From a virus, in IMG/VR virus record IMGVR_UViG_3300037189_013105, positions 1 through 58,205 of that record: DNA of 58,205 bases. One strand, written 5' to 3'. The position numbers and the translations under genes were made by a program. The notes beneath the pieces are model-generated. The model had not been told where the DNA came from, ran no database searches, and worked only from the letters and a program-made list of their open reading frames with translations. Below, piece by piece: positions 1,658 through 39,447 of the stretch. Within the stretch, counting starts at the first letter, position 1; each line of letters opens with the position of its first letter.

Positions 1658-3958
1658 ATGTCCGAGGACAACAAGGAGGAAATCCTTGACCCTGACGCTC
1701 CTGAAGGCGAGGTTCCCGATGCCGCAAACGACGCACAGAAACGAAAGTGGGTCAACTACGTCCAAAGTCAGTTCAAAATCTTTGCCGACTCCCGGTATCT
1801 GCTGGAACTTGATTGGGCGTTGTCCCTGGCGTTCTATGAATCACGGCAGTGGCTCTACAAATCGTCAAACGGGCAGTTTCTTCGTCGCCTGATTAACGAG
1901 GACGAGTACACAAGGTACATGACCGTCAACCGTATGGCGGGACTGATTGACAAGGTGGAAAGCCTCGCCACGCAGACCGCGCCTGACGTACAGTTCTTGC
2001 CCATTACGGACAACGAGAAGGACGTAAAAGCGGCGCAGACGGCGGAAGCGATCCATCAGCATTACTCGGCATTGTATGACAGGTCTACGCAGACCAAGCG
2101 GCGCGTCTCATGGGCATTGAAATCCACCACGTCGTTCATTCACCTGTATTGGGACGACAAGATGGATCGGCGTATGCCCGTCATGGACGACTCACAGGTT
2201 GTCATGGGCGAGGACGGTATGCCGCAAGCGGTGGTTCAGGGTTCCGAAGTGGTGGAAGCCGGGGGCGTTGGCGAGGAGATTTTGCCCGGTTTCTCGGTGT
2301 ACGTGCCGGGAATCTACAAGGACTGGTCAGAGGTTGACCGGGCGATTGTCGCGCAGGTCAAACCGCTTGGTTATTTGTTAGACAGGTTCGGCGACAAGGC
2401 AAAAGGTATCAAGCCGGATGCCGTGATGAGCGCTGCAGGGCTTGCCGGGTACGTGGATCAGTACCTTGACTCGTCCGGTGGCGTTGGCGTTGGGGCGTCT
2501 CCGACAAGGACGTATGCGGCAAAAGTCAACAAGAACGCCGCCGTCCTGTACCACTACTACGAACTCCCCAACGCCAAGCGACCAAAGGGCGCATACGCCT
2601 GTGTCGCCGGGAACACGCTTCTGCACCTGTCGGATTACCCCTACGACAAAAAGGACTCTTTGCCGCTTGTGCCTCTGTCTTGGGCGCACCGAAGCGGCAC
2701 GGTGTACGGAATGGCGCTTGCGGAACGACTGGTCGAACCGCAGATGGTCTACAACCGCGTGTACTCCTCCATCCTTGAGCAGATGGAAAACGAGGTGGAC
2801 TACGAAGTAGCGCCCGAAGGTTCTAATGTGGGACCGGAGGGAATGCAACGGCGGAAAGGCACGCGCACTCGCGTTCCTATCTCCTACAATCCCGCCGCAG
2901 GACCCGCGCCGCAGATTGTCCGTGCGCCCGGTATCAACCCTACCCGATTCACGTTCTTGCAACGCATTGAGCAGGACATGAGAGATATCGCAGGGGTGCA
3001 TGACGTGTCCGAAGGCGTTGCGCCTGCCGGGACGCCCGCCCAGGCGGTCAATATGCTCCAGAAGGCGGATCAGACCCAACACGCGCACCTCAGAAACGAG
3101 ATTGAGCGAAGCGCAAAGGAAATTGCGGAATGGGAAGTAGCGCTCGAAATCCAGTACGCCCCCTCCCCGTTCCTTCTGGCATTCGCCTCCCAATCGGACA
3201 ACCAATCGTCACCGACACAACCGATGGGGATGCCGCAGACGCCTCCGATGCCTTCTCCAATGCCGCCTCAGATGCCGCAGGGGATGCCGTCACCGATGGG
3301 GATGGATATGACTTCACCGATGGGTGGGCAAGCGCCCTCTATGAGTGACCCGTCAATGGGAATGCCGATGCCGCCGATGCCCGGTGGTATGCCGGGAATG
3401 CCGCAAGGCAATCCTGCCGGTAAATCCGCCGCGCTCGGTCTGCAAAGCCTTGAAGCGCTAAGAGATGGCGGAGCGTTCCATGTGCGCGTTGTGCCGGGTT
3501 CCGCCATGAACGAGACGCCTGACGACAAGTTCAACAAGGCGATGGCATTGAATACGGCGGGCGCATTGAACCCGATGAATCCCGGCGCAATCCCGTTCCT
3601 TCGGGCGTCCGGTCTTGCCAATGCCGACCAACTGATTGAGTACGTCAAAGCCGCGACTCCCCCGCCGCCACCGCCCGCTCCCCCGCCGCCACCGCCCGCT
3701 CCCCCGCCTGCGCCGACAGGACCGAGCATGGACGAGCAGATGGCGCTCGCGCAACACAATGCCGAGATCAACACGCAAAAAAACATTGCCACCAAGCAAG
3801 CCGATGTGCAGATGGAGATGCAACGAAACGAGCATCAGTCGGCGTTGCAGATTCAACAGGCGGAAGCCCTGAAAGAACTTGACCTAAGAGCGGAAATGGC
3901 GAAGCGGCACTACGGCATCACGCAATCGCCACAAGCGCCGCAAAAGGGAGCGAGGTAA
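1658..3958 (+). CDS. Portal protein, 766 aa
   Basis: Twelve copies of a portal protein form the ring at one capsid vertex through which DNA is packed and ejected. Size, position two blocks after terL and just before scaffold and capsid genes, and a body rich in aromatic and acidic blocks (for example Y-H-Y-Y-E-L-P and P-Q-M-V-Y-N-R-V-Y-S-S-I-L-E) support the call. The start is set at 1658 (AAGG seven bases upstream), because the in-frame extension to 1481 would run through the terminator and a palindrome. The C-terminal third is unusual: a Met/Pro/Gly-rich segment (about residues 575-655), then two P-P-P-P-P-P-A blocks, then a Gln-rich helix. These look like flexible linkers and a crown-like barrel extension. 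Confidence 0.88.
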   Translation: MSEDNKEEILDPDAPEGEVPDAANDAQKRKWVNYVQSQFKIFADSRYLLELDWALSLAFYESRQWLYKSSNGQFLRRLINEDEYTRYMTVNRMAGLIDKVESLATQTAPDVQFLPITDNEKDVKAAQTAEAIHQHYSALYDRSTQTKRRVSWALKSTTSFIHLYWDDKMDRRMPVMDDSQVVMGEDGMPQAVVQGSEVVEAGGVGEEILPGFSVYVPGIYKDWSEVDRAIVAQVKPLGYLLDRFGDKAKGIKPDAVMSAAGLAGYVDQYLDSSGGVGVGASPTRTYAAKVNKNAAVLYHYYELPNAKRPKGAYACVAGNTLLHLSDYPYDKKDSLPLVPLSWAHRSGTVYGMALAERLVEPQMVYNRVYSSILEQMENEVDYEVAPEGSNVGPEGMQRRKGTRTRVPISYNPAAGPAPQIVRAPGINPTRFTFLQRIEQDMRDIAGVHDVSEGVAPAGTPAQAVNMLQKADQTQHAHLRNEIERSAKEIAEWEVALEIQYAPSPFLLAFASQSDNQSSPTQPMGMPQTPPMPSPMPPQMPQGMPSPMGMDMTSPMGGQAPSMSDPSMGMPMPPMPGGMPGMPQGNPAGKSAALGLQSLEALRDGGAFHVRVVPGSAMNETPDDKFNKAMALNTAGALNPMNPGAIPFLRASGLANADQLIEYVKAATPPPPPPAPPPPPPAPPPAPTGPSMDEQMALAQHNAEINTQKNIATKQADVQMEMQRNEHQSALQIQQAEALKELDLRAEMAKRHYGITQSPQAPQKGAR

Positions 3959-4548: not shown

Positions 4549-5511
4549 ATGCCTACGTTAAACACGGACGCTAACGCTACGAACTCCGTAGCGGTCGAGG
4601 CGGCGTTCACCGGGGATCACCCCGAACACCTGATTGCGGTAGACAAACCCTGGTCGGAATTGTTCCTTGATGCGCGTAACGCCGAATCGCAAACGGCGCA
4701 GGACGACAGTGACGACTTAGAGTACGAACCTACCATTGACCCCGACGACGACGAAGCCGCAGACGATATTGAAGCGGGCGACGAAACGTACGGGGAAGAG
4801 GAAGAAGGCGCAGATGGCGACGAGCAACCGCTTAAGTTTACCGGAGACGATGCACGGCTTGGTAAACGGGCGCAAGACCGTATCCGTGACCTGATCCAGA
4901 AAAACAAAGAATTACAAGACATCGCTCAATGGAACCCCGTTGTCGAGCAGATCAAGGCGCTTGGCGTCAGCAACCCCACAGAATTGCAGGAATACCTTGC
5001 ACAGCAGGCGGAAGCGCAGCGCATCGAAGCCGAAAATCAACAGGTCGCCGCATACCTGAACGAGCAGTTCAGCGAGGGTTACATTGATGAAAATACGCGC
5101 AACCTCCAGTGGCAGGTACATCTGCTGAACCAGCAGGTACAGCAGGCGCAGATGGAACAGACGCGATTGATGGCGCAAACGCAGGAATCCAAAGCCATCA
5201 GTCAGTACCCCGTCATCGCCGCGCAGGGGCAACCCATGTATCAGGCGCTCCGTTCTCAGGGCATTGAACCTCTGAAAGCGGCAAAGGTCGTGCATGAGAC
5301 GCTTGCCGCCACCAGTGGAGCGGCGCAGACCAACGCGGCAAGAGAACTCGCCAAAGCCAGGAAAGCCCCTCCGGTAGCGTCAGGACGCAAGCAGGGAAGC
5401 GGCGTCACGCAGATGCGCCCCGGTCAGGGAGGGTCGCGCCCGTCCACGACGGTGGATTGGAAGCAGGGTATCAAGGGCAGTTACTCCCAACTGTTCGGAC
5501 TCAAAAAATAA
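4549..5511 (+). CDS. Putative capsid scaffolding protein, 320 aa
   Basis: Scaffolds fill the procapsid and guide capsid protein assembly. Evidence: position between portal and major capsid genes; a very acidic N-terminal region with runs of Asp and Glu (about residues 55-95); a long Gln/Glu/Ala-rich central helix likely to form a coiled coil (about residues 130-215); and a basic C-terminus ending in L-F-G-L-K-K, as expected for a capsid-binding tail. ATG 4549 was chosen because upstream in-frame sequence contains the terminator. No protease motif is seen. Confidence 0.8.
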   Translation: MPTLNTDANATNSVAVEAAFTGDHPEHLIAVDKPWSELFLDARNAESQTAQDDSDDLEYEPTIDPDDDEAADDIEAGDETYGEEEEGADGDEQPLKFTGDDARLGKRAQDRIRDLIQKNKELQDIAQWNPVVEQIKALGVSNPTELQEYLAQQAEAQRIEAENQQVAAYLNEQFSEGYIDENTRNLQWQVHLLNQQVQQAQMEQTRLMAQTQESKAISQYPVIAAQGQPMYQALRSQGIEPLKAAKVVHETLAATSGAAQTNAARELAKARKAPPVASGRKQGSGVTQMRPGQGGSRPSTTVDWKQGIKGSYSQLFGLKK

Positions 5512-5535
5512 ACCAGAAGCAAAAAGGAGCCACTT

Positions 5536-5913
5536 ATGGCAATCAAGAAATCGTTCTCCAATAGCGCAATGGCGGCTCCGGTGTCGCATTCCGCAAAACG
5601 TGTTGCGGCGAACAACGCCCTCAGCAAAAGCCGGGAGGGTAAATCCGCGCCCGACTACGCCTCCATGTCCAACTCCAACAACCCCGGTTCCCCTGCCGGG
5701 TCGGTGATGAACGGAGCGTACAAGATGGTCACGCATCCCGGTCTGAAGACGGGCAACCTCGGTAAATTGCCGGAGAAATCCAAAGTCGCCGCAACAAAAC
5801 TGCCTTCCATGAAAGGCAACAACTCCAAAGTCGCCAACAAGGAGCAGTACGCGGTTTCCCGTATCGGCTCGGTCGCTGCGGCGAAAGACTACAAGGGTAA
5901 AGGTGGCAAGTGA
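5536..5913 (+). CDS. Basic, low-complexity protein, 125 aa
   Basis: Starts after a strong AAAAAGGAG. It is rich in Lys, Ser, Ala and Asn, has no hydrophobic core typical of an enzyme, and resembles the short basic proteins after terL in composition. It lies between scaffold and capsid genes and its stop overlaps the next start (TGATG). A head-interior DNA-condensing or minor head role is possible, but inferred only from charge and place. Confidence 0.68.
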   Translation: MAIKKSFSNSAMAAPVSHSAKRVAANNALSKSREGKSAPDYASMSNSNNPGSPAGSVMNGAYKMVTHPGLKTGNLGKLPEKSKVAATKLPSMKGNNSKVANKEQYAVSRIGSVAAAKDYKGKGGK

Positions 5914-6104
5914 TGGCAAAAACTGTCAAGGGAATGCCCTGCACCCCGGCAAAGGTTGCCAAGACCCCCAAGAACAACCCGATGCGCCCTGACGCAAGCA
6001 TCAACCCGTCCGGCAAGCCTGTCGGCGGTAAAGGCATCAGCCCGGTCATGGGCAAGAAAACCATGCCAAAAATGGGACGGATGGGAAGCCCGAAAGGGTA
6101 CTGA
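5913..6104 (+). CDS. Basic Met/Pro/Gly-rich protein, 63 aa
   Basis: Start at the ATG overlapping the previous TGA. The product has a high proportion of Lys, Pro, Gly and Met (K-K-T-M-P-K-M-G-R-M-G-S near the end) and one Cys. No fold recognised. Its composition is like the post-terminase peptides, suggesting a family of small basic virion or packaging proteins in this phage. Confidence 0.62.
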   Translation: MAKTVKGMPCTPAKVAKTPKNNPMRPDASINPSGKPVGGKGISPVMGKKTMPKMGRMGSPKGY

Positions 6105-6157
6105 TTACCCGCTAAAAACTGAATATCGCACAACTGAATAACTTTCACACGACTTTC

Positions 6158-6177
6158 CTCGCGCACACTTGCGCGAT
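6158..6177. repeat. Dispersed palindrome, copy 4 (5' of capsid gene)
   Basis: CTCGCGCACACTTGCGCGAT: arms TCGCGCA / TGCGCGA, spacer CACT. It has the paired A-T to G-C change relative to copies 3 and 5. Lies just before the 6180 terminator. Confidence 0.8.
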
Positions 6178-6179
6178 AT

Positions 6180-6211
6180 GCCCGCTCGGTTTAAACCGGG
6201 GGGCTTTTTTT
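6180..6211 (+). terminator. Rho-independent terminator before capsid gene
   Basis: GC-rich hairpin (GCCC...CGGTTT / AAACCG...GGGC) followed by seven T. The capsid ATG lies 63 bases downstream without a visible promoter. Confidence 0.75.
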
Positions 6212-6240
6212 ATGCCTGACCGCACCCTGCGGAACAGGCG

Positions 6241-6260
6241 CTCGTGCGAGAACGCACGAG
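6241..6260 (+). promoter_or_regulatory. Hairpin abutting the capsid ribosome site
   Basis: CTCGTGCG-AGAA-CGCACGAG, a perfect 8-pair stem with a tetraloop, ends at the first base of AGGAG for the capsid gene. The same hairpin plus AGGAGATTAC recurs at 7374-7393. It may protect the message 5' end or mark an RNA processing site; the effect is inferred. Confidence 0.6.
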
Positions 6261-6273
6261 AGGAGATTACCAA

Positions 6274-7332
6274 ATGGCGCTTACGAACGCTGATAGCAAC
6301 GCTATCTCTCTGTCTGAGTATGCCGTTCTTAGCAACGACCCGCTCATTCAGAAGCTCACCTTTTCCCTGCACCAGACGGGCAACATCTTGCAGGACATTC
6401 CTTTCACCACGAAATCTTCCCTGAAGATGCGCGGTTCCCGCTTTACGGGTCTTAACGGAACCCTGCCGACAATCGGTTGGCGACGTCTGAACGAAGCCCC
6501 TTCCGCCACGAAGGGTCGCCCGACTCCTTACGAAGAGCAGGCGATGATCATGTCCAACGTCATTCAGATTGACGCGCAGTTAATCAATGACGACATGACC
6601 ATCGGCGATCCGTTGCAGAACGAGATCAACGCCTACATGGAGGCTTTGAAGTACGAAGTCAACTACCGCTTCCTGCTGAACGACCCCACCGACCCGACAA
6701 ACGGCGACGTGGACGCATGGGCGGGAATCAAGTACCGACTCGACAACCCTTCGCTCTACAACATTCCCACCGAAATGAAGGTGATTGGGATTGAAGGCGC
6801 GGGTACGGGTTCTCCGATTGTCGCAACGGCGTCCATGACCGCAACCAACGCCAACGACTTTATCGCCTCCATCCAGACCGCTCTTGACTACATGGGCGCT
6901 CCCGATGGCGAAGGCGTTGTCATGTACACCAACGACCTTGTAAAGCGTCGTCTGGAACGCGCTATCCGCATCATGGGCGCAGGCGCAGGTTTCGACATTA
7001 CCAAAGACGCCTTCGACCGCCCGGTTGAATCCTACAAGGCGATGAAGATTCGCGACATTGGTCGCCGCGCCGACCAGGTTACGCGCATCCTCGGTGACGA
7101 AACGCTCACCGGCGGTACGTGGGCGACGGGTTCCAAGTACGCCTCCCTGTACTTTGTGCGCTACGGAGCAGGGTTGTTTGAAGGGTGGCAGAAGCAACCC
7201 CTGAAACCGCAGTTCCTCGGACTCGACCCCACCAACGGTACGCAGTACAACGTCCTGATCGATTGGGCGTGTGGTCTGTGGCAACCGAACAACCGTTCCA
7301 TCGCCCGAATCCAGTCGATTCAGACCTCGTAG
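6274..7332 (+). CDS. Major capsid protein, 352 aa
   Basis: This is the shell protein, by position (after scaffold, before cement protein and adaptors), by length, and by an HK97-type composition: an N-terminal segment with A-L-T-N-A-D-S-N, a long central helix region with E-A-L-K-Y-E-V-N-Y (about residues 125-135), and a C-terminal region rich in Gly, Trp and Asp (I-D-W-A-C-G-L-W, about 330). It starts at ATG 6274 after a good AGGAG; upstream in-frame codons lie in the hairpin. I cannot assign a named subfamily. The hairpin-plus-Shine-Dalgarno leader and codon regularity suggest high expression. Confidence 0.88.
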   Translation: MALTNADSNAISLSEYAVLSNDPLIQKLTFSLHQTGNILQDIPFTTKSSLKMRGSRFTGLNGTLPTIGWRRLNEAPSATKGRPTPYEEQAMIMSNVIQIDAQLINDDMTIGDPLQNEINAYMEALKYEVNYRFLLNDPTDPTNGDVDAWAGIKYRLDNPSLYNIPTEMKVIGIEGAGTGSPIVATASMTATNANDFIASIQTALDYMGAPDGEGVVMYTNDLVKRRLERAIRIMGAGAGFDITKDAFDRPVESYKAMKIRDIGRRADQVTRILGDETLTGGTWATGSKYASLYFVRYGAGLFEGWQKQPLKPQFLGLDPTNGTQYNVLIDWACGLWQPNNRSIARIQSIQTS

Positions 7333-7348
7333 GTCATTCACATAAAAG

Positions 7349-7371
7349 TAGGGGAGACAGGTTCTCCCCTA
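7349..7371 (+). promoter_or_regulatory. Intercistronic hairpin after capsid gene
   Basis: TAGGGGAGA-CAGGT-TCTCCCCTA, a perfect 9-pair stem without a T run. It stands two bases before the second leader hairpin, so two hairpins lie head to tail between capsid and cement genes. Confidence 0.55.
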
Positions 7372-7373
7372 TA

Positions 7374-7393
7374 CTCGTGCGAGAACGCACGAG
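7374..7393 (+). promoter_or_regulatory. Duplicate of the capsid leader hairpin
   Basis: Identical to 6241-6260, including the downstream AGGAGATTAC and the ATGGC start context. The duplication places the same RNA element before the two head proteins likely to be made in largest amount. Confidence 0.6.
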
Positions 7394-7406
7394 AGGAGAT
7401 TACAAA

Positions 7407-7853
7407 ATGGCTTTTGATGTTAACGCGATCTGGCTTTCCACGACCGCGATCACCCATGCGACGACGGCGACGGTCACTGCCGTTGGTTCCGCCAAAGACG
7501 TTGGCGGCGGCGGTCCTCGTCGCGGCTATGACCTTACCTGCCGTGTCGCTTCCGTTTTCGCCACTGTCGCATCTCTTGCGACTTCTGCCGTCACTTACAC
7601 CTTCGTCGCGCAGGCGGCGGATGATACGGCATTCTCTACCAACCTGATCCAGTACAACTTTGAACCGTTCGTACTGAACTATGTCAACGGTTCCACCACC
7701 GCCAGCAACGTCACGGCGGGATTCCGTCAGACGCACCGATTCGCCCCGGACAATAAACGCTACATCCGCGTTTACTGCGCCGTTGGCGTCGGCGGCACTG
7801 CTGTCGTTGACAGTATCATCGAAGCGGTCGTCGGTCAATCGACTCCCGCCTAA
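7407..7853 (+). CDS. Capsid cement/decoration protein, Bbp16-like, 148 aa
   Basis: Bbp16-type proteins bind the outside of podoviral capsids and stabilise them. The sequence is small, Ala/Thr/Val-rich and likely beta-structured, with a pattern remembered from that family: a strand-rich centre with T-F-V-A-Q-A-A-D-D-T-A-F (about residues 65-76) and F-A-P-D-N-K-R-Y-I-R-V-Y (about 113-124), then a C-terminal Val/Gly stretch. It directly follows the capsid gene and shares its leader hairpin, which fits a protein needed in many copies per head. Confidence 0.72.
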   Translation: MAFDVNAIWLSTTAITHATTATVTAVGSAKDVGGGGPRRGYDLTCRVASVFATVASLATSAVTYTFVAQAADDTAFSTNLIQYNFEPFVLNYVNGSTTASNVTAGFRQTHRFAPDNKRYIRVYCAVGVGGTAVVDSIIEAVVGQSTPA

Positions 7854-7859
7854 TCACTG

Positions 7860-7893
7860 AAGTCAGGCAACGATATTCTCGTTGCCTGACTTT
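7860..7893 (+). terminator. Probable terminator after cement gene
   Basis: Perfect 14-pair stem AAGTCAGGCAACGA / TCGTTGCCTGACTT around TATTC, followed by a weak TTTAATCT tail. Confidence 0.65.
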
Positions 7894-7921
7894 AATCTCA
7901 ACCTTTGGAGGAAGGTTCCTT

Positions 7922-10096
7922 TTGTTCACCGATAAACTCAACCAATCCGATTTTGATCTTTTAAATTCCGCCCTGAAGCATTCGCAGGAAGGGCGACTTG
8001 ACCTTGCCGAACCGTTACTTGCCGAGTTTCTGAAGCGCCATCCGTTTGAACCGGACGTGCTGAACCATCACTGTGACGTACTCTCCAAGAGTCGCAAACT
8101 GCCCGAAGCCTACGAAAAAGCGGCGCTTGGCGCATCGCTTTTCCCCAAAGATTCCAACTGGCATACGGCGGCAAGTATCTGCGCTGGGGCGATGGGTAAC
8201 GTGGAACTGGCGCTCGCGCACACGGAGCGAGCGATAAAGGTTTCGCCCTACAACAATATCGCCAAGTGGAACCGGGCATTGTACCTTCTTGCTCTTGGAC
8301 GATGGGAAGAAGGGTGGAAAGAGTACGAATGCCGATGGGCGAACCGTGCGCCGTGCCGCACAATGAAACCGCATTGGGACGGCACGTATTTGGGCGAGGA
8401 TAAAACGCTTTACCTGTGGTGGGAACAGGGACTCGGCGACACGCTCTGCATGATCCGCTTCATCATCCCGGTTTGGAAAAAAGCCGGGAAACCCAAACTC
8501 GTCATCGAGGTACAGCAACCTCTGATTCCTCTTCTATCGTCGTTTAGCAGGATTCCGACATGGCAGATTGTCGCGCCTCAAAGCGACGGGTCATTTGTCA
8601 CGGAATTTGACGAGCATTTGCCTTTGATGTCCCTGCCGCATATTCATGGAATTAAATCGCCGTCCGAGTTGCCGGATGGCGTACTGTTCAGCGCCTCTCC
8701 TCTTCCTCCAAAGGATGACGGCGCTGATACGACAAAAGCCGATATGAAGTCCTCCCGTATCGGCTTTTGTTGGAAAGGTTCTGCAAGCCACGCGAACGAT
8801 GAGGCAAGAAGCCTGAGCGAAGAACTTGCCGCACGGTTTGCCTTGACCCTGAAGAAGCATGGCGTGGAAGTGGTTTCGCTTGTGCCGGGGGCGAAGGTCC
8901 CGGGCATTAAGGGAAGCGAAGCGTTCCAGACGCCACACTTCGGGTACACCGGGCAAATTATCGCCGGTTGTGACGCAGTGGTTTCGGTGGATACGTCGGT
9001 GGCGCACCTGACGGGCAGTATGGGAAAGTCTCTGATTGTCCTGACTCCGAAGGCGGCGGATTACCGATGGGGGATAACGGGTGAGCATTGTTTCTGGTAT
9101 CCGTCTGCGACCCTCTTGCGGCAGGATGTTCAGGACGATTGGGAAACCGTCCTGCTACGCGCCGTAGAGCGTGTGACGGGCGTTGCTGTGACGGAGTTGG
9201 AACCCGCGCCTCCTGCGCCGGAACCGGAACGTGACCCGCACAAGTTGGAAATGCCATCGTCACAGTTTGATGTGCTTGCCGGGGATATCCCGGTTGCTGT
9301 CGGTGGCGTTCCTCTGTACCGATTCTATTACCATCTGGCGATTATGCTGGACGCCAGGAACATCGTGGAGACGGGAACGTACTGCGGCGCGGCGACGGTG
9401 TACCTTGCGGCGGCGGCGAAGCACTTGGGCGGGAAACTGGTGACAATAGACGATTCTTTCCTCTCCAATTCGGTGGAGGGCAACATTGATTCTATGATTG
9501 TCGCCAAGAATGCGGTCAAGAATCTGGACGTGGAAGGCGTTGTCCGGTTCATGGACGGCGATAGCGTGGAATCCCTCGCCCTCCTTGCCGATGGCGGCGA
9601 CCTCAAGGACGTTGACCTTATCGTTCTGGACGACGACCATAGCGCGGGGACTTTGCTCAAGGAACTTGAGACGGTGTGGGCGCACCTTCGACCCGGCGCA
9701 ATCGTGCTGTCGCATGACGGCATGAACTACCACACACCGGGCGTTCAGGTGGCGTTCAAAGAATTTGCCCGAAGGCACGGCGTTGCCCCAATCTACCTGC
9801 CGACGTTTGGGAGCGTCGTCATGCTACAGAAACCCTATGGCGCGGAACTGACGTACCGATGCGCTCATGGCTGGGTGGCAAAGGGAACGAACTACAGCGC
9901 CGGGGAAGCGGCAGGGATGCGTGACTTTGACCCGATCACGGTAAGCGGATGGGACGATTACATCGGGGTGCGGGACTCTTTCTTCCCCGGCGATAGCGTT
10001 CCTTTGACGCAGCGAGAAGAAGAAGCGTGGATTCACAAGCATTACCCGCTTAATGTGACCGAATCTGCACACTCGGAACGAGTTGCAAGAGAATAA
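7922..10096 (+). CDS. TPR + glycosyltransferase-9-like + SAM methyltransferase fusion, 724 aa
   Basis: Three regions are visible. Residues ~1-150 are helical repeats with TPR spacing (H-T-E-R-A-I-K-V-S-P-Y-N and R-A-L-Y-L-L-A-L-G-R-W-E-E-G). Residues ~160-420 resemble ADP-heptose/GT9-type transferases: W-E-Q-G-L-G-D-T-L near the start and D-A-V-V-S-V-D-T-S-V-A-H-L-T-G (~349-363), the usual sugar-nucleotide site. Residues ~445-650 look like a class I SAM methyltransferase (V-E-T-G-T-Y-C-G-A-A-T-V-Y at ~480; V-D-L-I-V-L-D-D-D-H at ~562). Such fusions are known in bacterial glycan pathways. Here it sits between cement and adaptor genes, isolated by terminators, with a TTG start after GGAGGAAGG. 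It may modify virion proteins or host surface glycans; the substrate is unknown. Confidence 0.82.
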   Translation: MFTDKLNQSDFDLLNSALKHSQEGRLDLAEPLLAEFLKRHPFEPDVLNHHCDVLSKSRKLPEAYEKAALGASLFPKDSNWHTAASICAGAMGNVELALAHTERAIKVSPYNNIAKWNRALYLLALGRWEEGWKEYECRWANRAPCRTMKPHWDGTYLGEDKTLYLWWEQGLGDTLCMIRFIIPVWKKAGKPKLVIEVQQPLIPLLSSFSRIPTWQIVAPQSDGSFVTEFDEHLPLMSLPHIHGIKSPSELPDGVLFSASPLPPKDDGADTTKADMKSSRIGFCWKGSASHANDEARSLSEELAARFALTLKKHGVEVVSLVPGAKVPGIKGSEAFQTPHFGYTGQIIAGCDAVVSVDTSVAHLTGSMGKSLIVLTPKAADYRWGITGEHCFWYPSATLLRQDVQDDWETVLLRAVERVTGVAVTELEPAPPAPEPERDPHKLEMPSSQFDVLAGDIPVAVGGVPLYRFYYHLAIMLDARNIVETGTYCGAATVYLAAAAKHLGGKLVTIDDSFLSNSVEGNIDSMIVAKNAVKNLDVEGVVRFMDGDSVESLALLADGGDLKDVDLIVLDDDHSAGTLLKELETVWAHLRPGAIVLSHDGMNYHTPGVQVAFKEFARRHGVAPIYLPTFGSVVMLQKPYGAELTYRCAHGWVAKGTNYSAGEAAGMRDFDPITVSGWDDYIGVRDSFFPGDSVPLTQREEEAWIHKHYPLNVTESAHSERVARE

Positions 10097-10107
10097 CTCC
10101 TTTTGCA

Positions 10108-10153
10108 GGCGTCCAAATGAGATTCACGCTGAATCTCAGGGACGCCTTTTGTT
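10108..10153 (+). terminator. Terminator after the fusion gene
   Basis: A long two-part hairpin: outer stem GGCGTCC / GGACGCC and inner stem GAGATTCA / TGAATCTC around CGC, followed by TTTTGTTTTG. Confidence 0.8.
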
Positions 10154-10180
10154 TTGCCGGGGAGAAGAGGAAATCACACC

Positions 10181-10867
10181 ATGTCACTGACACGCGGCGA
10201 CATTAAACGGATCACCACGCAACGGTTAGGAGAGTTTCAAGGCACGGAAGCGGGAGACGATCCCCTTCTGTACAACGACATTATCCAGAGAGTCGTTGAC
10301 CGCATTGCAAGGGATACGTTCTGTTTCTACACGACCAAAACGGCGGCATTGGTGGCGAACCAGGCGGATTACTGTATGCCGGATTTGATCCGCCTCAAGA
10401 CGGGCGTTGTCAAGGACGCATCCGGCAACTGGCAACCCCTGATTATCGACGATCTTTGGAAGTTCGACGATATCCGATCCTACGATTGGCGAAACAGCAC
10501 GGCAAGCGATCCGCCGCAATACCTGCTGACGACAAGCTCAGATTCCACGTTCACCTTCTACCCGACGCCTTCCACTTCTCGCACTTCAGGTTACCGACTT
10601 GAAGGCTACTTTGTGCCGGGAGCGTACTGGTCATACGACACGAACGGCGCAGGAGTCGCTATCACGGACTCCTCTATCATACCGCTTCACACGGAGGCAG
10701 AGGAAGTAGTTCTGGACGGGGTAGCGTCGGAGCGAGCCATCATGTTCGCCCACACGAGCGAAAGGGCAAAAGCTCTTTATCCCCATTACCGGGAACGGTT
10801 TGAAAAGGGCGTTCGCAGGCTTGAGGGCATCACCCGCACCTTCTCGCGCAGTAACCACCGGATTTAA
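10181..10867 (+). CDS. Head-tail adaptor protein, 228 aa
   Basis: Adaptor proteins attach below the portal and seal the head. ATG 10181 follows GAAGAGG. The protein has an N-terminal helix-rich part (G-D-I-K-R-I-T-T-Q-R-L-G, then I-I-Q-R-V-V-D-R-I-A-R-D), a beta-rich middle and a C-terminal helix (A-K-A-L-Y-P-H-Y-R-E-R-F-E). That order is usual for podoviral tail adaptors. No exact family is assigned. It is followed 5 bases later by a protein of like size and plan, and the pair probably forms successive rings. Confidence 0.65.
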   Translation: MSLTRGDIKRITTQRLGEFQGTEAGDDPLLYNDIIQRVVDRIARDTFCFYTTKTAALVANQADYCMPDLIRLKTGVVKDASGNWQPLIIDDLWKFDDIRSYDWRNSTASDPPQYLLTTSSDSTFTFYPTPSTSRTSGYRLEGYFVPGAYWSYDTNGAGVAITDSSIIPLHTEAEEVVLDGVASERAIMFAHTSERAKALYPHYRERFEKGVRRLEGITRTFSRSNHRI

Positions 10868-10872
10868 CTCTT

Positions 10873-11598
10873 ATGAGCATCACCCTTTCTGCGCTTGAAA
10901 AGCGCGTCTACAGCAGGCTCAACGAAGCGGCAAATACCGATGTGGCAGCGCTTCAGAGCGGCACATCGGGAACGCCCACCACCACCACCACGCAGGGCGT
11001 TATCGACCTCTACAACGCCGTCTGCGGGGAACTGTGCCGCACCTGTATCCCTTTGCCGGGAACAGGCACGATCTCCTCGTACACGACGGGTCAGGTGGTC
11101 TTTAACCTCAGTTCTCTATCGTCCCTGACCTCTGGCATTTCGGCGTTGTGGACGGCGTATGAAATCGCCTACAACGGAACAAATTTATCGCCTGCCGGGA
11201 TGCTGGAACTGGTCAACTGGACGGAATCGGCGGGCGGATTGCACTCAGCAACAAGCGCAACGCCCCTGTACTGGTGCGAGTACGGCGACGGCGGAAACTA
11301 CGCCATCAACCCTCCTCCGGCGTCTTCCTACACGCTCAAGGTATCGGGCTATGGCGTCCCTACCGTCGCCACCTCTGGCACGGACACGACGGCATGGCTT
11401 CCTGACGATCTGCTTGAAATGCTGGAATACCGGATCAGCTACCTGATTGCGGCGAAGAACTTTGACGACGAGACGATGACGGGTCGGGCGCAGGTCTGGA
11501 ACAACGAGTTTGAACTGCGCCGACAGGAACTGATCTCGCGCCTCCCCAAAAGCCTGAAAGGGTGGAAGTACCGGGGAGCGCTTAACCCGCAGAAATGA
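10873..11598 (+). CDS. Second head-tail adaptor/completion protein, 241 aa
   Basis: Begins with helical A-L-E-K-R-V-Y-S-R-L-N-E-A and ends with a helix rich in Arg and Glu (N-E-F-E-L-R-R-Q-E-L), with a Ser/Thr/Gly beta-type centre and P-D-D-L-L-E-M-L-E-Y-R-I-S-Y at ~177. This helix-beta-helix plan and the position just after another adaptor and before the tail genes support a head-completion role. Function is inferred mainly from context. Confidence 0.6.
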   Translation: MSITLSALEKRVYSRLNEAANTDVAALQSGTSGTPTTTTTQGVIDLYNAVCGELCRTCIPLPGTGTISSYTTGQVVFNLSSLSSLTSGISALWTAYEIAYNGTNLSPAGMLELVNWTESAGGLHSATSATPLYWCEYGDGGNYAINPPPASSYTLKVSGYGVPTVATSGTDTTAWLPDDLLEMLEYRISYLIAAKNFDDETMTGRAQVWNNEFELRRQELISRLPKSLKGWKYRGALNPQK

Positions 11599-11605
11599 GC
11601 GATTG

Positions 11606-11824
11606 ATGAACCTTTTATCGCACACACTTGTGCGAGTGGTATGCCCTGATTGCAATACTTTCAATATGTGCGAATACGAGATTGACAAAGAAGTGACGCC
11701 TTCGCAACGGCAGGACTTCTTGAAAAAACACCCTATCGCCTGCCGCCATTGCGGGCTTGAAGTCAAACTCGTTCCCGTCCCTGTCCGAGACAAAAACGCG
11801 AAGGAGACTGTCCATGCGCGTTAA
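11606..11824 (+). CDS. Small zinc-knuckle protein, 72 aa
   Basis: Two C-x2-C pairs, C-P-D-C (~13-16) and C-R-H-C (~46-49), about 30 residues apart, form a probable zinc ribbon. Start taken at ATG 11606; a TTG lies one codon earlier. The 5' end is formed by a copy of the dispersed palindrome, which encodes L-S-H-T-L-V-R. The stop lies 11 bases inside the next microgene. Function unknown. Confidence 0.65.
   Translation: MNLLSHTLVRVVCPDCNTFNMCEYEIDKEVTPSQRQDFLKKHPIACRHCGLEVKLVPVPVRDKNAKETVHAR
11617..11636. repeat. Dispersed palindrome, copy 5 (inside a CDS)
   Basis: ATCGCACACACTTGTGCGAG, exact reverse complement of copy 3. Lies near the 5' end of the zinc-knuckle gene. Confidence 0.85.
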
Positions 11825-11915
11825 ACCCGTTCATCTTTGCCTGTTTTACCTCGTTCTTCTGACGTTTTTCATCCTGTTCATCGCCGTCTGCGGCGGGAAG
11901 CTGGTAATGACTTGA
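11814..11915 (+). CDS. Single-pass membrane microprotein, 33 aa
   Basis: Preceded by AAGGAG and overlapping the zinc-knuckle gene by 11 bases. Nearly the whole peptide is one hydrophobic segment (L-C-L-F-Y-L-V-L-L-T-F-F-I-L-F-I-A-V) with basic residues at the N-terminal side, so the N-terminus should stay in the cytoplasm. Its stop overlaps a possible TTG start of the next small gene (TTGA). Function unknown. Confidence 0.5.
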   Translation: MRVKPVHLCLFYLVLLTFFILFIAVCGGKLVMT

Positions 11916-12040
11916 AATTACGCCGAAACCTTCCTTTTGTGTTGTTCCTTGCCCTGATGGTCGCCTGCCTGTTGTCGCCGGGGACGTTCGGCGGGTTTAT
12001 TTTGGGTCCACTAATTCAAATATCGTGCTTCTCGGAGTAA
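11912..12040 (+). CDS. Small hydrophobic protein, 42 aa
   Basis: A TTG start overlapping the upstream TGA gives a peptide with a basic N-terminus (K-L-R-R-N) and a hydrophobic core with L-M-V-A-C, which resembles a signal or lipobox-like segment. It precedes the esterase gene by 8 bases. The coding call rests on coupling geometry only, so confidence is limited. Confidence 0.4.
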   Translation: MKLRRNLPFVLFLALMVACLLSPGTFGGFILGPLIQISCFSE

Positions 12041-12048
12041 CCATCTAA

Positions 12049-13404
12049 ATGCCCAGTTTTGTACCATCGCAAATAGCGGATATCGACAAACTCAACCGTT
12101 TTCTTCGGTTGCAGGGGTGGGCGGTCGTCGCGCAGTACAACAACCCCGGTAAAGGCGGATATACCACATCCGGCAGTAACTACACTACGTTTCGCGTCAA
12201 GCATAAAATTTTGTACGATTGCTCGGAATTGATGTTTGTTTACGCCAACTGGAAGGGGAGCGGATCGGCGGCAGGGGAAACAGCCAATACCAACGCCATC
12301 ACTGTTAAATCGGCGGTGCAACGCCCCGGAACCTCGGCGACGGACGAAACGCAACCGCGCATCCCGATTCCGTTCGCCGGAGCGCGTACTGTCACGATCC
12401 CTGCAACCGTGCAGACCAGTGTGTTTGCATGGAGCGATTCTGTACCGCTACCCTGCAATGCAAACAGTTATGTTTTTACGCGCAACGGGGCGCAATGTGG
12501 AACAGGGGAAAACATTCCTGCGGGCGGTTATCGTTGGGCGGCAAATAGCACCGGCGAGGGTGTGACAAATAACAACGATTCTGTAGACAGCGGAAGTATG
12601 GGGTCGTTCACCAACGGTTCAGCGTTTGCGCCTGTTCTGATTTTAGGGCGACTCAACAATTATGCAGACCTGCTCCCTACGGTTGCGATAATTGGGGACT
12701 CTATTGCATCCGGTACGGGCGAAACGGTTTCCGTTTCAAGCGCAACGGAATTTACGATGGGCAACTCCGGGTTTTATCAGGGTTTCGCGGAACGCTCGTG
12801 CCGCGACCTAAGCATCCCGATTTTTTCGCTATCAACGGGCGGCGAGACGGCGCAAAACTTTACCGGGACGACATCTGCGTTAAGAACGCAACTCCTGCGA
12901 TATGCGACTCACGCCGTCCTGAATCATGGGACTAACGACCTCGCCTCACGCACGACGGCGCAACTACAGGCGGATATCCTGACAATTACCCGCTATTGTC
13001 TCTCCCTCGGCGTTCGTGTCGCTCGCGTCACCATCCTGCCCAAAACCACTTCAACGGACTCGTGGGCGACGGCGGCGAATCAGACGGTCACAAGCCAGGA
13101 ATCGAACCGATTAGCCATTAATGCGTGGCTCAGGGATTCTTCTGCATCCGGGTATGTACAACAGGCATTGGCGACGGTGACGGCGGCGCAACTGGCGGCG
13201 TGTGGCGGTAGCAGTAAAGCAGTGACGGTATACGACGTTTGCACAAACATTGAAGCGAACTCCTCAAACGTGCTGACGCAGAACGGCGGCAGGTGGCTGG
13301 CGACCGGGAGCGCGAATGCGCCAACAACGGACGGAACGCATCCTTCCTCCGCCTATCATCAACTGATGGCGAATCAAATACCGTCGTCGTGGTTCACGTT
13401 CTAA
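12049..13404 (+). CDS. SGNH/GDSL-family esterase, tail-associated, 451 aa
   Basis: SGNH hydrolases remove acyl groups from carbohydrates or lipids. The four blocks are visible: G-D-S (I-I-G-D-S-I-A-S-G, ~213-221), the Gly block (S-T-G-G-E-T-A, ~263-269), the Asn block (N-H-G-T-N-D-L-A, ~291-298) and the D-x-x-H block (D-G-T-H-P, ~428-432). Ser, Asp and His form the catalytic triad. The first ~200 residues are beta-rich, probably a binding or trimerisation part. Being among tail fibre genes, it is likely a virion enzyme deacetylating host surface polysaccharide; the substrate is not known. Confidence 0.85.
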   Translation: MPSFVPSQIADIDKLNRFLRLQGWAVVAQYNNPGKGGYTTSGSNYTTFRVKHKILYDCSELMFVYANWKGSGSAAGETANTNAITVKSAVQRPGTSATDETQPRIPIPFAGARTVTIPATVQTSVFAWSDSVPLPCNANSYVFTRNGAQCGTGENIPAGGYRWAANSTGEGVTNNNDSVDSGSMGSFTNGSAFAPVLILGRLNNYADLLPTVAIIGDSIASGTGETVSVSSATEFTMGNSGFYQGFAERSCRDLSIPIFSLSTGGETAQNFTGTTSALRTQLLRYATHAVLNHGTNDLASRTTAQLQADILTITRYCLSLGVRVARVTILPKTTSTDSWATAANQTVTSQESNRLAINAWLRDSSASGYVQQALATVTAAQLAACGGSSKAVTVYDVCTNIEANSSNVLTQNGGRWLATGSANAPTTDGTHPSSAYHQLMANQIPSSWFTF

Positions 13405-13938: not shown

Positions 13939-15222
13939 ATGGCGATTGACTCATCACTTAAGCGCTCCAGTTCGCTTCTTGACTCAGTAACACTGCCAAG
14001 CGGCAGTATCAGCGCATCGGTACGCCCTGCGCTTTTGGGGCAGTATTCGTTCGGGGTTGGCGTTGTCCGTATTTCCAGTGTCAAATACAGAACTCTTAAC
14101 TCTCGCTCTGGTTCTGATAGCGGTCTGATTGCAACGGCATATCTACAGGATGGTTCACCGGGCGACACACTGACGCGGGCTACGTACCCCTCCAGCTTTC
14201 AGGACGTTCAGGATACCTCCGCTTCTCCTGCGACAATCACGTTGTTGGGCGAAATTACGCTCAGTGATACATGGCTCTTAGGGGATTGGCAAGCAACCTA
14301 CAACGCGAATTACAACTCGTCTCTCAACGGCGCTACAGGCACAAAGAGATTAGACTATAAAGACTCTACAGGTTCCTGGCAAACCGGAACGCCTGTTGCC
14401 ATAACGCTTCGTAATGGGATAAGCGTTTACGATACCGCAACAGGAAATGGGTCAGCGATAACAGGCGGCGTTCAGGCGATACGCTTTGCCCTCAACTTAA
14501 CGCGCCCTAATAATGGTCAACCGACACAAGTCTCTCTTGACCTGTACGATTTCCGTGTATCGCTCAGTCCTTCTGCGCCCGTCTTAACAGCGAATTTCTG
14601 TTCTGCTGCCGGGACGAGTGTGAGTTTATCCTGGGCGACAGTTTCGGTTGCGGTGAATTACCGTGTCTACCGGGATGGAGCATTGGTCGCAACGGTTACT
14701 GCGCCAACGATTAGTTATGTTGCAACAAGTCAGAGTATAGCGGAATCGCATACATGGACGGTGCGAACATGGGACGGGATCAGCGAATCTTCTAATTCCA
14801 ATGCAGTCACCGGGGCGACATCTTCAACGCCAACGGTTACGCTTGCCGGAACGCTTACTAAATGCGGCAAGTTCATTGACCTGACGTGGACAGTGTTCCC
14901 GGCAAGTGACGCAAGCCTGACGGCGACGATCACGCACTCTTATCTAAACATTTTTGGGCAGACGGTAAGCGAGACAATCTATAGCGGCAATGCAAGCGGG
15001 TCGTACACCTATACCCTGCGCTCTTACGAGATAGGGTCGGCTCAGACGTTTGTTTTATCGGCTTCCAACCCTTGCGGTTCCGGTTCCAGTACACTTGTCG
15101 TCTCGTCAATGTATTCAACGACGCCGGATTGCACAACGACATACGTTTCCCAGCCGGACTGCTCAACGACTTACACCGACGCTCCGACTATTACAACGAC
15201 TTACACGACGGGCGACTTTTAG
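13939..15222 (+). CDS. Tail protein with fibronectin-III-like domains, 427 aa
   Basis: The N-terminal half is beta-rich without a named domain. From ~215 onward the sequence has FN3 features: V-S-L-S-W-A-T-V followed by Y-R-V-Y-R-D-G (~225-245), and later F-I-D-L-T-W-T-V with Y-T-Y-T-L-R-S-Y. The last ~35 residues hold three related units of the form T-T-Y-x5-D-C, giving a Cys/Thr repeat tail. FN3 modules in phage tails usually bind surface carbohydrate. The stop codon overlaps the end of the convergent lipoprotein gene by 4 bases. Confidence 0.68.
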   Translation: MAIDSSLKRSSSLLDSVTLPSGSISASVRPALLGQYSFGVGVVRISSVKYRTLNSRSGSDSGLIATAYLQDGSPGDTLTRATYPSSFQDVQDTSASPATITLLGEITLSDTWLLGDWQATYNANYNSSLNGATGTKRLDYKDSTGSWQTGTPVAITLRNGISVYDTATGNGSAITGGVQAIRFALNLTRPNNGQPTQVSLDLYDFRVSLSPSAPVLTANFCSAAGTSVSLSWATVSVAVNYRVYRDGALVATVTAPTISYVATSQSIAESHTWTVRTWDGISESSNSNAVTGATSSTPTVTLAGTLTKCGKFIDLTWTVFPASDASLTATITHSYLNIFGQTVSETIYSGNASGSYTYTLRSYEIGSAQTFVLSASNPCGSGSSTLVVSSMYSTTPDCTTTYVSQPDCSTTYTDAPTITTTYTTGDF

Positions 15223-15629
15223 GGCGACCAGTGAAAAGTTGACGGCGCTCCGTTTTGCAGGGTCATGGGAACCTCGTCGCCTTTGGAGTCATAGAGGGCA
15301 AGCGGGTAAATGACATTGACTTGCAAATTGTACGGGTCAAAGTAAATGACGCCGTTACCTCCTATGAAAGACGGCGCTTTGTTCGCCCTGCCAATCTGTA
15401 GCCATTTGGTTTTGTCGTCGCCGTTTTTGGCGAACAGTTTATATCCTTGTAGGTTCCGATCGCTGATGTGTTCAATGCCGACCGTGATGAACTTGTCGGC
15501 GTTGTAGTTGACGCCGTACCCGATGGGGTCAGAAGTGGCGCGTGGAGGCGAGGATGGCGAATTTCCTCCCCCTCCTCCGCACCCGGCGAGAAAAAGCGCA
15601 ATCAGTACAGGGATCAGTGATTTTTTCAT
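15219..15629 (-). CDS. Leftward lipoprotein (moron candidate), 136 aa
   Basis: The N-terminus is M-K-K-S followed by a hydrophobic stretch and the lipobox L-A-G-C (cysteine at residue 17), then a Gly/Ser/Pro linker: a classic signal-peptidase-II lipoprotein, so it should be exported and lipid-anchored. The remaining ~95 residues have an FN3-like pattern (D-R-N-L-Q-G-Y-K-L-F and Y-P-L-A-L-Y-D-S-K-G-D). It has AAGGAG before ATG and its own promoter-like site. It is the only leftward gene in the late block, as is typical of prophage-expressed genes that change the host surface or block superinfection; that role is inferred. Confidence 0.82.
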   Translation of the reverse strand: MKKSLIPVLIALFLAGCGGGGGNSPSSPPRATSDPIGYGVNYNADKFITVGIEHISDRNLQGYKLFAKNGDDKTKWLQIGRANKAPSFIGGNGVIYFDPYNLQVNVIYPLALYDSKGDEVPMTLQNGAPSTFHWSP

Positions 15630-37464: not shown

Positions 37465-38487
37465 CTATTTCTTGCGCGATATCTGGTCAGCAGGGCTGTA
37501 CTGCCTGTGCTGTTTCTGGATATCTGCCTGAGCGTACCTCACATATCTACCTGTCATGGTTGTATCGGTGTGACCCAAGAGCGCCATCAATGCGAACTGG
37601 TTACCGCCGTTACGCAGGAAGCTGACCGCGAACGTGTGACGGAAGGTGTGAGGCGAACACCGGGCATGGTCGATCCCTGCCGCTTCGCCGATTTTATGGA
37701 CTATCTGCTCGATGCCGGAGCGTGATAATCCTTGACCGGAGAGGTTCCCGCCCTCTGAGATAAAGACCGGGCTATCATGGTCGCGTTCCCGCTCAGACAA
37801 ATACATCCAGAGAGATCGTGAGGATGTTTTACCAAGAGGCAGAGTTCTTTTCTTGCCTCCCTTTCCCTCGACTCTCAAACATGGTGCGCCGGACAAATCA
37901 ACGTCTTTGTACGTGAGTTGCGAAAGTTCGGTCACTCTTGCTCCGGTATCCAGTAATAACCACATCAGGCATTCGTTCCTTCGCGGTTGCAGTGTTTTCT
38001 TGGATGCTTTTAAGAGCGCCTGTATTTGATCGTCAGTGAAGGGTTGTATCTGGTCTGGACGGTCTATCGGCGTATTGATTAAGGACATCGGTGATGCATC
38101 AATGGCTCCCTGCGAGACGCACCAGGAGAAGAACGCGGAAAGACTGCGATGGTAGGTAGCAACGGTTCCAGGCGCGATTTTCTGGCGCGTGATACCGCCG
38201 ACATTGCCTTCAAATCCCCATCTATTGATGCCGGGGGCAAGAGTCTTTCCTGTGTGATGCAGGAAGGCTCGTAGGGCATGGATATCGACGACATTGTACT
38301 CCCGGTCTGCGAGAAACCAGAGTAACTTGTCGAGGATGTAACGCCTGTTTTTCAGGGTGGCGGCGCTGTGCTGCGCGATGTCGCCTTCTAATTGCCAACC
38401 TTGCGCCCATTGCTTCAATTCTGTTAGCGACAGAAGATGTGTAGATACCGCTTCGTTTTTAGACGAAGTAATCGCTCTGTTTTTCAT
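37465..38487 (-). CDS. int: Tyrosine integrase, 340 aa
   Basis: Catalyses site-specific recombination between attP and the host tRNA gene. The catalytic residues are present in order: Arg in T-G-A-R-V-T-E-L (~193), Lys in G-K-G-G-K-K-R (~220), H-x-x-R in H-T-F-R-H-T-F (~286-292), His in L-L-G-H-T-D-T-T (~311) and the nucleophile Tyr in G-R-Y-V-R-Y-A (~321 or 324). The N-terminal ~60 residues would bind arm sites and the next ~100 are the core-binding SAM-like domain. GGAGG precedes ATG 38487. One putative arm site (38465-38478) overlaps the first codons, so integrase may repress its own gene. Confidence 0.95.
   Translation of the reverse strand: MKNRAITSSKNEAVSTHLLSLTELKQWAQGWQLEGDIAQHSAATLKNRRYILDKLLWFLADREYNVVDIHALRAFLHHTGKTLAPGINRWGFEGNVGGITRQKIAPGTVATYHRSLSAFFSWCVSQGAIDASPMSLINTPIDRPDQIQPFTDDQIQALLKASKKTLQPRRNECLMWLLLDTGARVTELSQLTYKDVDLSGAPCLRVEGKGGKKRTLPLGKTSSRSLWMYLSERERDHDSPVFISEGGNLSGQGLSRSGIEQIVHKIGEAAGIDHARCSPHTFRHTFAVSFLRNGGNQFALMALLGHTDTTMTGRYVRYAQADIQKQHRQYSPADQISRKK
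38465..38478. promoter_or_regulatory. Putative integrase arm site 1
   Basis: GAAGTAATCGCTCT, identical to site 2, lies inside the first codons of int on the other side of the att core from sites 2 and 3. Confidence 0.6.
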
Positions 38488-38854: not shown

Positions 38855-39049
38855 ATGGCTAACATTTCTACCCCCCCCCCCGAAATTTTGCAACTTTCAG
38901 AGGCAATACTTAAACTGAATCCTCATTATCGTCGCTTGGTGATGGAGGAGATTGATAATCTTCTCGCAACTGATTCTCCAACTGGCGACGGTAAAAAGAA
39001 TCAACGATGTCAGCAATGTGCAAGCGATGAGGCTCGTCCAATAACCTGA
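38855..39049 (+). CDS. Small regulatory-type protein with poly-C tract, 64 aa
   Basis: After the short N-terminus M-A-N-I-S-T comes a run of 11 C giving three prolines, then a helix (I-L-Q-L-S-E-A-I-L-K-L-N-P-H-Y-R-R-L-V-M-E) like the C-terminal helices of phage repressors. The 3' 140 bases overlap the repressor gene on the other strand, so the last ~45 residues are constrained by that gene. No clear Shine-Dalgarno. The upstream promoter/operator supports it, but the coding call is uncertain. A change in the C tract would shift the frame. Confidence 0.45.
   Translation: MANISTPPPEILQLSEAILKLNPHYRRLVMEEIDNLLATDSPTGDGKKNQRCQQCASDEARPIT
38871..38881. repeat. Homopolymer tract, 11 C
   Basis: Eleven consecutive C within the sixth to ninth codons of the 38855 gene. 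A second tract of ten C lies in the primase-helicase gene (45857-45866). Confidence 0.9.
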
Positions 39050-39404
39050 TTCGTGCAATCAAGGGCAAGATGTCAAGCGGGATTTCCTCGGTGTTATCAT
39101 CGGGTAGGAATCCCGCAATCACCATGCCTTCGCGCCGGGTATCGTCAGGCAGGTTCAAAGCATCGGCGATGCGGTTCACGGCAGACCTGGTGCGCGACTG
39201 ATTGCCGGAACGGACATTCGATAGCCATCCGGCAGAACCTCCCATGACCTGAGACAATCGGTGCGACGACCAACCTTTCGCCGCTAACTGCTTGTCTAAC
39301 CATTCCGAAAACGCATCCCGGTTTTTCACTCTACTACCTACCAATCTAACCCCTGTCAATTTAACCCCTGTCAATCTGACATTTGTCAATCCGATTTCAA
39401 TCAT
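38910..39404 (-). CDS. XRE-family repressor (CI-like), 164 aa
   Basis: Likely maintains lysogeny by binding operators near the divergent gene. Residues ~30-95 contain a helix-turn-helix (S-S-H-R-L-S-Q-V-M-G-G-S-A-G-W-L-S-N-V-R-S-G) with family spacing. A C-terminal helix (E-P-H-R-L-H-I-A-D-I-V-D-S-F-Y, ~127-141) probably dimerises. No LexA-type autocleavage Ser/Lys pair is evident, so induction would differ from lambda. ATG 39404 was chosen for AAGGAG seven bases before. Three 15-base direct repeats at the start of the gene give the odd N-terminal sequence L-T-G-V-K/L-T-G-V-R. Confidence 0.82.
   Translation of the reverse strand: MIEIGLTNVRLTGVKLTGVRLVGSRVKNRDAFSEWLDKQLAAKGWSSHRLSQVMGGSAGWLSNVRSGNQSRTRSAVNRIADALNLPDDTRREGMVIAGFLPDDNTEEIPLDILPLIARIRLLDEPHRLHIADIVDSFYRRQLENQLREDYQSPPSPSDDNEDSV
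39347..39391. repeat. Three 15-base direct repeats in the 5' end of the repressor gene
   Basis: TAACCCCTGTCAATT, TAACCCCTGTCAATC and TGACATTTGTCAATC in immediate succession; each has TTGACA on the minus strand. They code for 5-residue protein repeats but also look like tandem operator sites. Confidence 0.75.
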
Positions 39405-39418
39405 TTGAATCTCCTTCA

Positions 39419-39447
39419 ATCATATCTAAAATTAGAAACATTGTCAC
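39419..39447 (-). promoter_or_regulatory. Candidate repressor promoter (leftward)
   Basis: Minus strand GTGACA, 17 bases, TATGAT. The predicted message would start at or just before AAGGAG, giving a very short leader. Confidence 0.5.

Follow-up and report, generated by a model that had tools for sequence, protein, structure and literature searches.

A predicted TPR, GT9-like glycosyltransferase and methyltransferase fusion in a phage head operon, a putative modifier of a head protein

What is a large protein of a glycan-modification type doing among the head genes of a tailed phage, between the capsid and the adaptors? The gene that raises this question is a single open reading frame (7922..10096 (+); 724 aa, TTG start) in a 58,205-base virus record, the whole of which was analysed and is referred to here as the window. 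A Shine-Dalgarno-like GGAGGA block, recognised by eye, is found 9 nt 5’ of the TTG (7907..7912 (+)). Upstream lie, in order, the genes for a P22-type portal, the major capsid protein (6274..7332 (+); phrog_212 / GP7 / PF20911) and a 148-aa cement-like protein (7407..7853 (+)), which matched no Pfam or PHROGs family and is so named from its position and size only. Two SU10-type adaptors follow (10181..10867 (+), Pfam E=1e-12; 10873..11598 (+), Pfam E=1.5e-10). A preliminary description of this DNA had placed one frame between capsid and cement genes and adaptors, and both its coordinates and its neighbours proved exact.

The last 87 bases of the record repeat the first 87 (a second copy of the first 60 bases starts 87 bases from the record end, whereas the first 100 have no second copy), which suggests a circular genome 58,118 bp long. 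Because it encodes a tyrosine integrase (37465-38487 (-)) and an HTH protein (38910-39419 (-)), the phage is probably temperate. It also carries two DNA methylases, of the N6/N4 and C5 type (43234-44043 and 48822-50075), and, after the adaptors, a GDSL-type esterase (12049-13404; Pfam E 8e-9, phrog_8480 E 9e-40). Within the late region an antisense ORF (15219-15629 (-)), whose start resembles a lipoprotein signal by eye (LAGCGGGG), is possibly an accessory gene. The portal C-terminus (about 3200-3600) contains Met/Pro/Gln-rich repeats, whose length in the window is not the same as in its closest relative, L002.

At the level of sequence families, the methyltransferase is the clearest part of the protein: Methyltransf_24 (PF13578) matched well above its cut-off (E=1.1e-16, residues 482-599, 62 bits vs 26.3). 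TPR_16 (E=6e-5, 23.9 vs 32.7 bits), TPR_14 (18.1 vs 23.5) and Glyco_transf_9 (PF01075; E=0.004, residues 344-374, 17.0 vs 22 bits) stayed below theirs, PF04989 matched weakly, and Glyco_transf_41 was absent among the six Pfam matches of the protein (E up to 0.01). Four viral relatives (L006, L010, L027 and L077) exceed the Glyco_transf_9 cut-off of 22, with 24.0-26.3 bits. The nearest PHROGs family is phrog_2675 (E=3.9e-10), which PHROGs names DNA methyltransferase. No structural family was matched in Pfam or PHROGs, in agreement with the earlier view that the protein is not structural, and a reading of it as a structural domain was dropped.

The remaining domains were delineated in an AlphaFold model built on 26 sequences, the window protein and its viral relatives (mean pLDDT 72.1). 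Repeated antiparallel helix pairs at the N-terminus form a predicted TPR solenoid (residues 10-141; 7949..8344 (+)) that aligns with TPR chains at Z 15.6-17.1, and it is followed by a GT9-like GT-B domain (residues about 152-422; 8375..9187 (+)); the TPR helices and the GT-B core (160-422) have pLDDT values mostly above 85. The GT-B domain aligns with solved GT9 enzymes, namely E. coli heptosyltransferase II (1psw; Z 16.9, 236 aligned, rmsd 3.4), a Veillonella GT9 (3tov; Z 16.6) and WaaC (Z 15.8), and also with TibC (Z 16.1). A low-confidence linker (residues 435-464; 9224..9313 (+)) leads to a class I SAM O-methyltransferase domain (residues 465-638; 9314..9835 (+)), modelled with moderate to low confidence (pLDDT blocks of 38-74) and best aligned to O-methyltransferases (8c9v, Z 17.7, 168 aligned, rmsd 2.5); no fold was resolved for the tail (residues 636-724). 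The three domains of a glycan-modification type that had been proposed are thus borne out, the methyltransferase by Pfam and the other two by predicted fold. In Foldseek, the top PDB chains were SPINDLY and O-GlcNAc transferases; since the whole-chain TM scores are low (about 0.2), this likeness appears to be one of shared plan, TPR plus GT-B, and not of close superposition.

The residues expected of a GT9-like enzyme are largely kept. In the aligned set, G170, G172, D173, H362 and Y393 are invariant (26/26), R296 is R in 25/26, and D357 varies, with D in 16 sequences and C in the other 10; a conserved N-lobe Asp (D173) and a His in the C-lobe block (H362) therefore accompany the GT-B fold in every sequence. 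D173, which ends the EQGLGD block (residues 168-173; 8423..8440 (+)), would occupy the position of the catalytic base. The preliminary description had drawn attention to this G-L-G-D block, no loss of which was seen among the relatives, and to a D-T-S-V-A-H block (within SVDTSVAHL, residues 355-363; 8984..9010 (+)), for which conservation is strict at the His and less strict at the Asp. In the methyltransferase domain, VETGTYCG (residues 482-489; 9365..9388 (+)) is, from what is established about this fold, presumably the SAM-binding loop.

Hairpins flank the gene on both sides, one between it and the cement gene (7858..7894; -25.9 kcal/mol, z -8.8) and one, followed by a T-rich stretch, 3’ of it (10107..10147 (+); -25.8 kcal/mol, z -6.4), as had been described. 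A similar hairpin (z -4.4) also separates the capsid and cement genes, so the supposed terminator fence is not distinctive of this gene and was ruled out as a special feature. We found no sigma-70-like promoter in 5900-12200 (0 vs 2.8 expected). Identical 26-base leaders, each comprising a hairpin and a Shine-Dalgarno sequence, lie directly 5’ of the capsid and cement genes (6244-6269 and 7377-7402) and are the only two copies in the window (0 expected); the three-domain gene is without this leader, as might be expected if less of the enzyme is required. Comparison of the window with L002 gave a dN/dS of 0.107 for the three-domain gene (724 codons) and 0.07 for the capsid, the former indicating that the gene is kept under purifying selection.

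The preliminary description knew of no standard phage gene with this architecture, a view that did not survive a wider search: TPR and GT9-like domains with a SAM methyltransferase, adjacent or fused, occur in many viral contigs and annotated phages. Searching with an alignment of the GT domain returned 431 relatives in viral contigs, and the best 80 of these 431 were reduced to 68 groups by clustering at 90% DNA identity, of which 50/68 were used for whole-record family searches. L002 carries a near copy of the window gene (97% identical) at the same genomic place. The relatives usually carry an N-terminal extension large enough for a TPR domain, and Pfam TPR families were found in 6/6 scanned. 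Three further groups (L027/L028, L077 and L034, the last read from its translation) have an FkbM-type methyltransferase fused C-terminally, in the order TPR-GT9-FkbM; in L027 the fusion has a portal gene (phrog_145) on one side and a major head protein gene (phrog_283) on the other, and in L077 it comes after a portal gene. With the methyltransferase alone as probe, no phage record was matched, and among viral contigs only L002 was. In the open-licence literature we found no phage head operon described as containing a TPR-GT9 or TPR-GT9-methyltransferase gene.

TPR-GT9 proteins are also common in bacteria (561 candidates), where we scanned 10 of the 11 ORFs having a C-terminal extension of at least 150 aa, out of 78. 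An alphaproteobacterial TPR-GT9-like ORF (L101:4614-6041) ends in Methyltransf_23 and is a putative cellular cousin of the fusion, and in a Sphaerotilus ORF (L141, about 5051-7150) the TPR-GT9-like type is combined with a TPR-GT41 (OGT-like) domain. In a FastTree phylogeny of 150 GT domains, viral and bacterial rows were mostly apart (7 changes vs 50 when shuffled), and the window and L002 joined L006 at 76% support; the rows were chosen by similarity and long branches meet in this tree, from which we claim no donor lineage.

Pairing with a METHYLTRANSFERASE recurs among the relatives. Among the 117 proteins encoded, across the 68 groups, by the first two genes after the glycosyltransferase, Methyltransf_23 is the commonest family (17/117), and it is present in at most 1/117 control genes from more than 5 kb away on the same contigs (117 drawn from 453; 25 families were named, every other having at most one member). 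The only methyltransferase among these 25 control families was one MT-A70. Whole-record searches yielded 29 Methyltransf_23 matches in 19 of the 50 records, and 10 of the 29 follow the glycosyltransferase on the same strand at a distance of 66-543 bp, with 0.21 expected at random; the probability calculated for this excess serves as a guide only, related phages not being independent. The partner belongs variously to Methyltransf_23, FkbM or Methyltransf_24, as if the activity, and not the gene, were kept. The methyltransferase domain, whose retention in relatives had been thought to matter, is accordingly not preserved as such; other SAM methyltransferase families take its place, rather than its being simply lost.

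Placement beside head genes recurs as well. Using profiles made from neighbour clusters and applied within 6 kb in the 68 groups, we recognised a capsid or portal gene upstream in 13/68, an adaptor or stabilisation gene downstream in 15/68, both in 8 and either in 20/68; the other 48/68 groups have no recognised head neighbour, in part through short flanks. Capsids of phrog_334 were found in 8/50 records, and seven of them precede the GT match by 0.94-1.04 kb, the eighth being at the opposite end of its contig (distances calculated by hand). SU10 adaptors are present in 12/50 records. In Podoviridae sp. ctDrO704, the order is capsid, two ORFs, TPR-GT, endonuclease, Methyltransf_23, GT8 and SU10 adaptor. 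Two cyanophage relatives, S-SRM01 and BUCT-ZZ01, instead have the gene beside tail fibre genes, and in one of them the protein itself also matches Methyltransf_11 weakly.

Two phages that share different parts of the window genome separate head from tail. L006 has a related capsid (38%, E 7e-81), a cement protein weakly similar to that of the window (phmmer E 2e-4) and a related glycosyltransferase (33%, E 2e-51), with the methyltransferase as a separate gene, and its tail module differs, with no SU10 adaptor match. L086, conversely, has a terminase 81% identical to that of the window, related adaptors and a different capsid, and its record, possibly a fragment, gave no match to the three-domain protein over 33.6 kb. 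With the head block kept where the tail differs, and no match to the gene in a record with another capsid, both comparisons appear to point to the head as partner.

The window capsid type does not depend on the gene, which is carried by three of seven records with that type (the window, L002 and L006). In the remaining four (L168-L171), which are fragments of 8.7 to 35.8 kb, no GT match was found, nor any between cement and connector, from which the gene appears to be an optional accessory and not part of the core head module. At the glycosyltransferase spot between cement and connector, L168 has a homing endonuclease (5312-5935 (-); phrog_314 E 3e-26). A Ser/Thr-rich N-terminus of the cement protein was considered as a marker and rejected, as by eye it did not separate gene-bearing from gene-lacking phages.

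We consider it probable that the product is a cytosolic protein glycosyltransferase and sugar O-methyltransferase that decorates the phage’s own head protein. The enzyme would be expressed late, together with the head genes; its TPR solenoid would hold the acceptor protein, to which the GT-B domain would add a sugar taken from a nucleotide-sugar donor, and the attached SAM O-methyltransferase might then methylate that sugar or the acceptor protein itself. The likeliest acceptor would be the capsid or the cement protein, both encoded just upstream. That the acceptor is a protein is suggested by the SPINDLY and O-GlcNAc transferase chains heading the Foldseek matches, by the alignment with TibC, and by the Sphaerotilus ORF that joins this type to GT41; a head target is supported by the two activities occurring together, and lying next to head genes, time and again. 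Against the proposed role count the four same-capsid records that show no such gene, the 48/68 groups in which no head neighbour was recognised, the relatives found elsewhere, such as those near cyanophage tail fibres, the Glyco_transf_9 score below its cut-off and the moderate to low confidence of the methyltransferase model, and the position of a gene can reflect tolerance of insertion rather than its target.

The preliminary description had left open whether capsid or tail proteins are decorated or the host surface is altered late in infection; decoration of the virion now fits better than the latter, and the head better than the tail, as a prediction. Modification of a host envelope glycan (e.g. 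LPS core or O-antigen), late or in the lysogen, with a changed receptor or superinfection as the outcome, draws on the solved GT9 matches being LPS heptosyltransferases, on how widespread TPR-GT9 relatives are in bacteria and on the temperate look of the phage. We regard it as unlikely, because the gene lies in the head operon and not by the integrase, no membrane or flippase partner adjoins it by eye, its TPR solenoid is like that of protein glycosyltransferases, and the methyltransferase pairing recurs next to capsid genes. A tail or tail-fibre target would account for the S-SRM01 and BUCT-ZZ01 neighbourhoods and seems to us quite unlikely, given the capsid-cement-glycosyltransferase block common to the window and L006 despite their different tails, and given that relatives with recognised structural neighbours mostly lie between capsid or portal and adaptor genes.

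The same placement would follow if a mobile accessory gene, whose target is unrelated to its neighbours, had settled at a place in the head operon that tolerates insertions; the four same-capsid records showing no such gene, the homing endonuclease occupying the spot in L168, the endonuclease between TPR-GT and methyltransferase in ctDrO704 and the hairpins on both sides all suit this improbable alternative, to which the low dN/dS and the recurrence of both activities there, across phages with different capsid families, are opposed. As to an enzyme that modifies DNA, the phage does encode two separate DNA methylases, and the phrog_2675 match bears such a name. An identity as DNA methyltransferase, which that name alone suggests, was rejected in view of the small-molecule O-methyltransferase fold; the protein contains no DPPY, NPPY or PCQ motif, and its TPR domain and head-operon position also speak for something else, making DNA modification a very improbable role.

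Returning to modification of a head protein, we raise, tentatively and as something we would not yet expect to hold in full, a broader proposal: that many tailed phages carry a writer for their own shell, made of a TPR-guided GT9-like protein glycosyltransferase and a sugar-capping O-methyltransferase, as a mobile accessory of the head module, here merged into one bifunctional polypeptide that would give the capsid a methylated-glycan coat. To our knowledge, phage virion glycosylation is documented in few systems, and if this reading is true, sugar-coated virus shells are perhaps commoner than thought. A TPR, a GT9-like domain and a SAM methyltransferase by capsid genes would then predict methylated-sugar shells in uncultured phages, the extent of virion glycosylation would become testable from sequence, and the enzyme would be a compact prokaryotic look-alike of O-GlcNAc transferase.

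The GT41 enzymes O-GlcNAc transferase and SPINDLY likewise fuse a TPR solenoid to a soluble GT-B domain, whereas the window GT domain is GT9-like, without a Glyco_transf_41 match, and has an additional methyltransferase. TibC, according to the cited part of PMC4358343, is a GT-B protein heptosyltransferase acting on autotransporter Ser residues; TibC and AAH share a related GT-B fold with the window protein, but TibC has an N-terminal beta-barrel and iron-finger and neither TPR nor methyltransferase, and the window N-terminus is predicted to be helical and TPR-like, with no beta-barrel of the BAHT (TibC/AAH) kind. The GT9 LPS heptosyltransferases WaaC and WaaF resemble it in GT-B fold (Z 15.8-16.9), yet act on a lipid acceptor and lack both TPR and methyltransferase, and the window sequence scores below the GT9 cut-off. 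As it answers to neither the GT41 nor the TibC family and misses that cut-off, we file the enzyme only as GT9-like. Its methyltransferase resembles SafC/COMT-type and CmcI-like O-methyltransferases in fold (Z up to 17.7) and in the weak PF04989 match; those enzymes stand alone and act on small molecules, whereas this one is fused.

Virion glycosylation as a kind is already known, and the three-domain enzyme in a head operon would be a new form of it. Capsid and tail glycosylation has been described for mycobacteriophages, including the Che8 capsid (Freeman et al. 2023, as cited in the relevant passages of PMC12619734 and PMC11256854). The likeness is that phage-borne glycosyltransferases are linked, in those passages, to glycans on the phage’s own capsid and tail proteins, as is proposed here for a head protein; the Maravista glycosyltransferases lie near the genome 3’ end in the account cited (PMC11256854), whereas the window enzyme lies inside the head operon and is fused to a methyltransferase. 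Podoviridae sp. ctDrO704 (MW202512) is alike in gene placement, with a TPR and GT9-like gene between capsid and SU10 adaptor and a methyltransferase nearby; it differs in that these are separate genes, the methyltransferase is of the Methyltransf_23 type, and extra GT8 and endonuclease genes are present.
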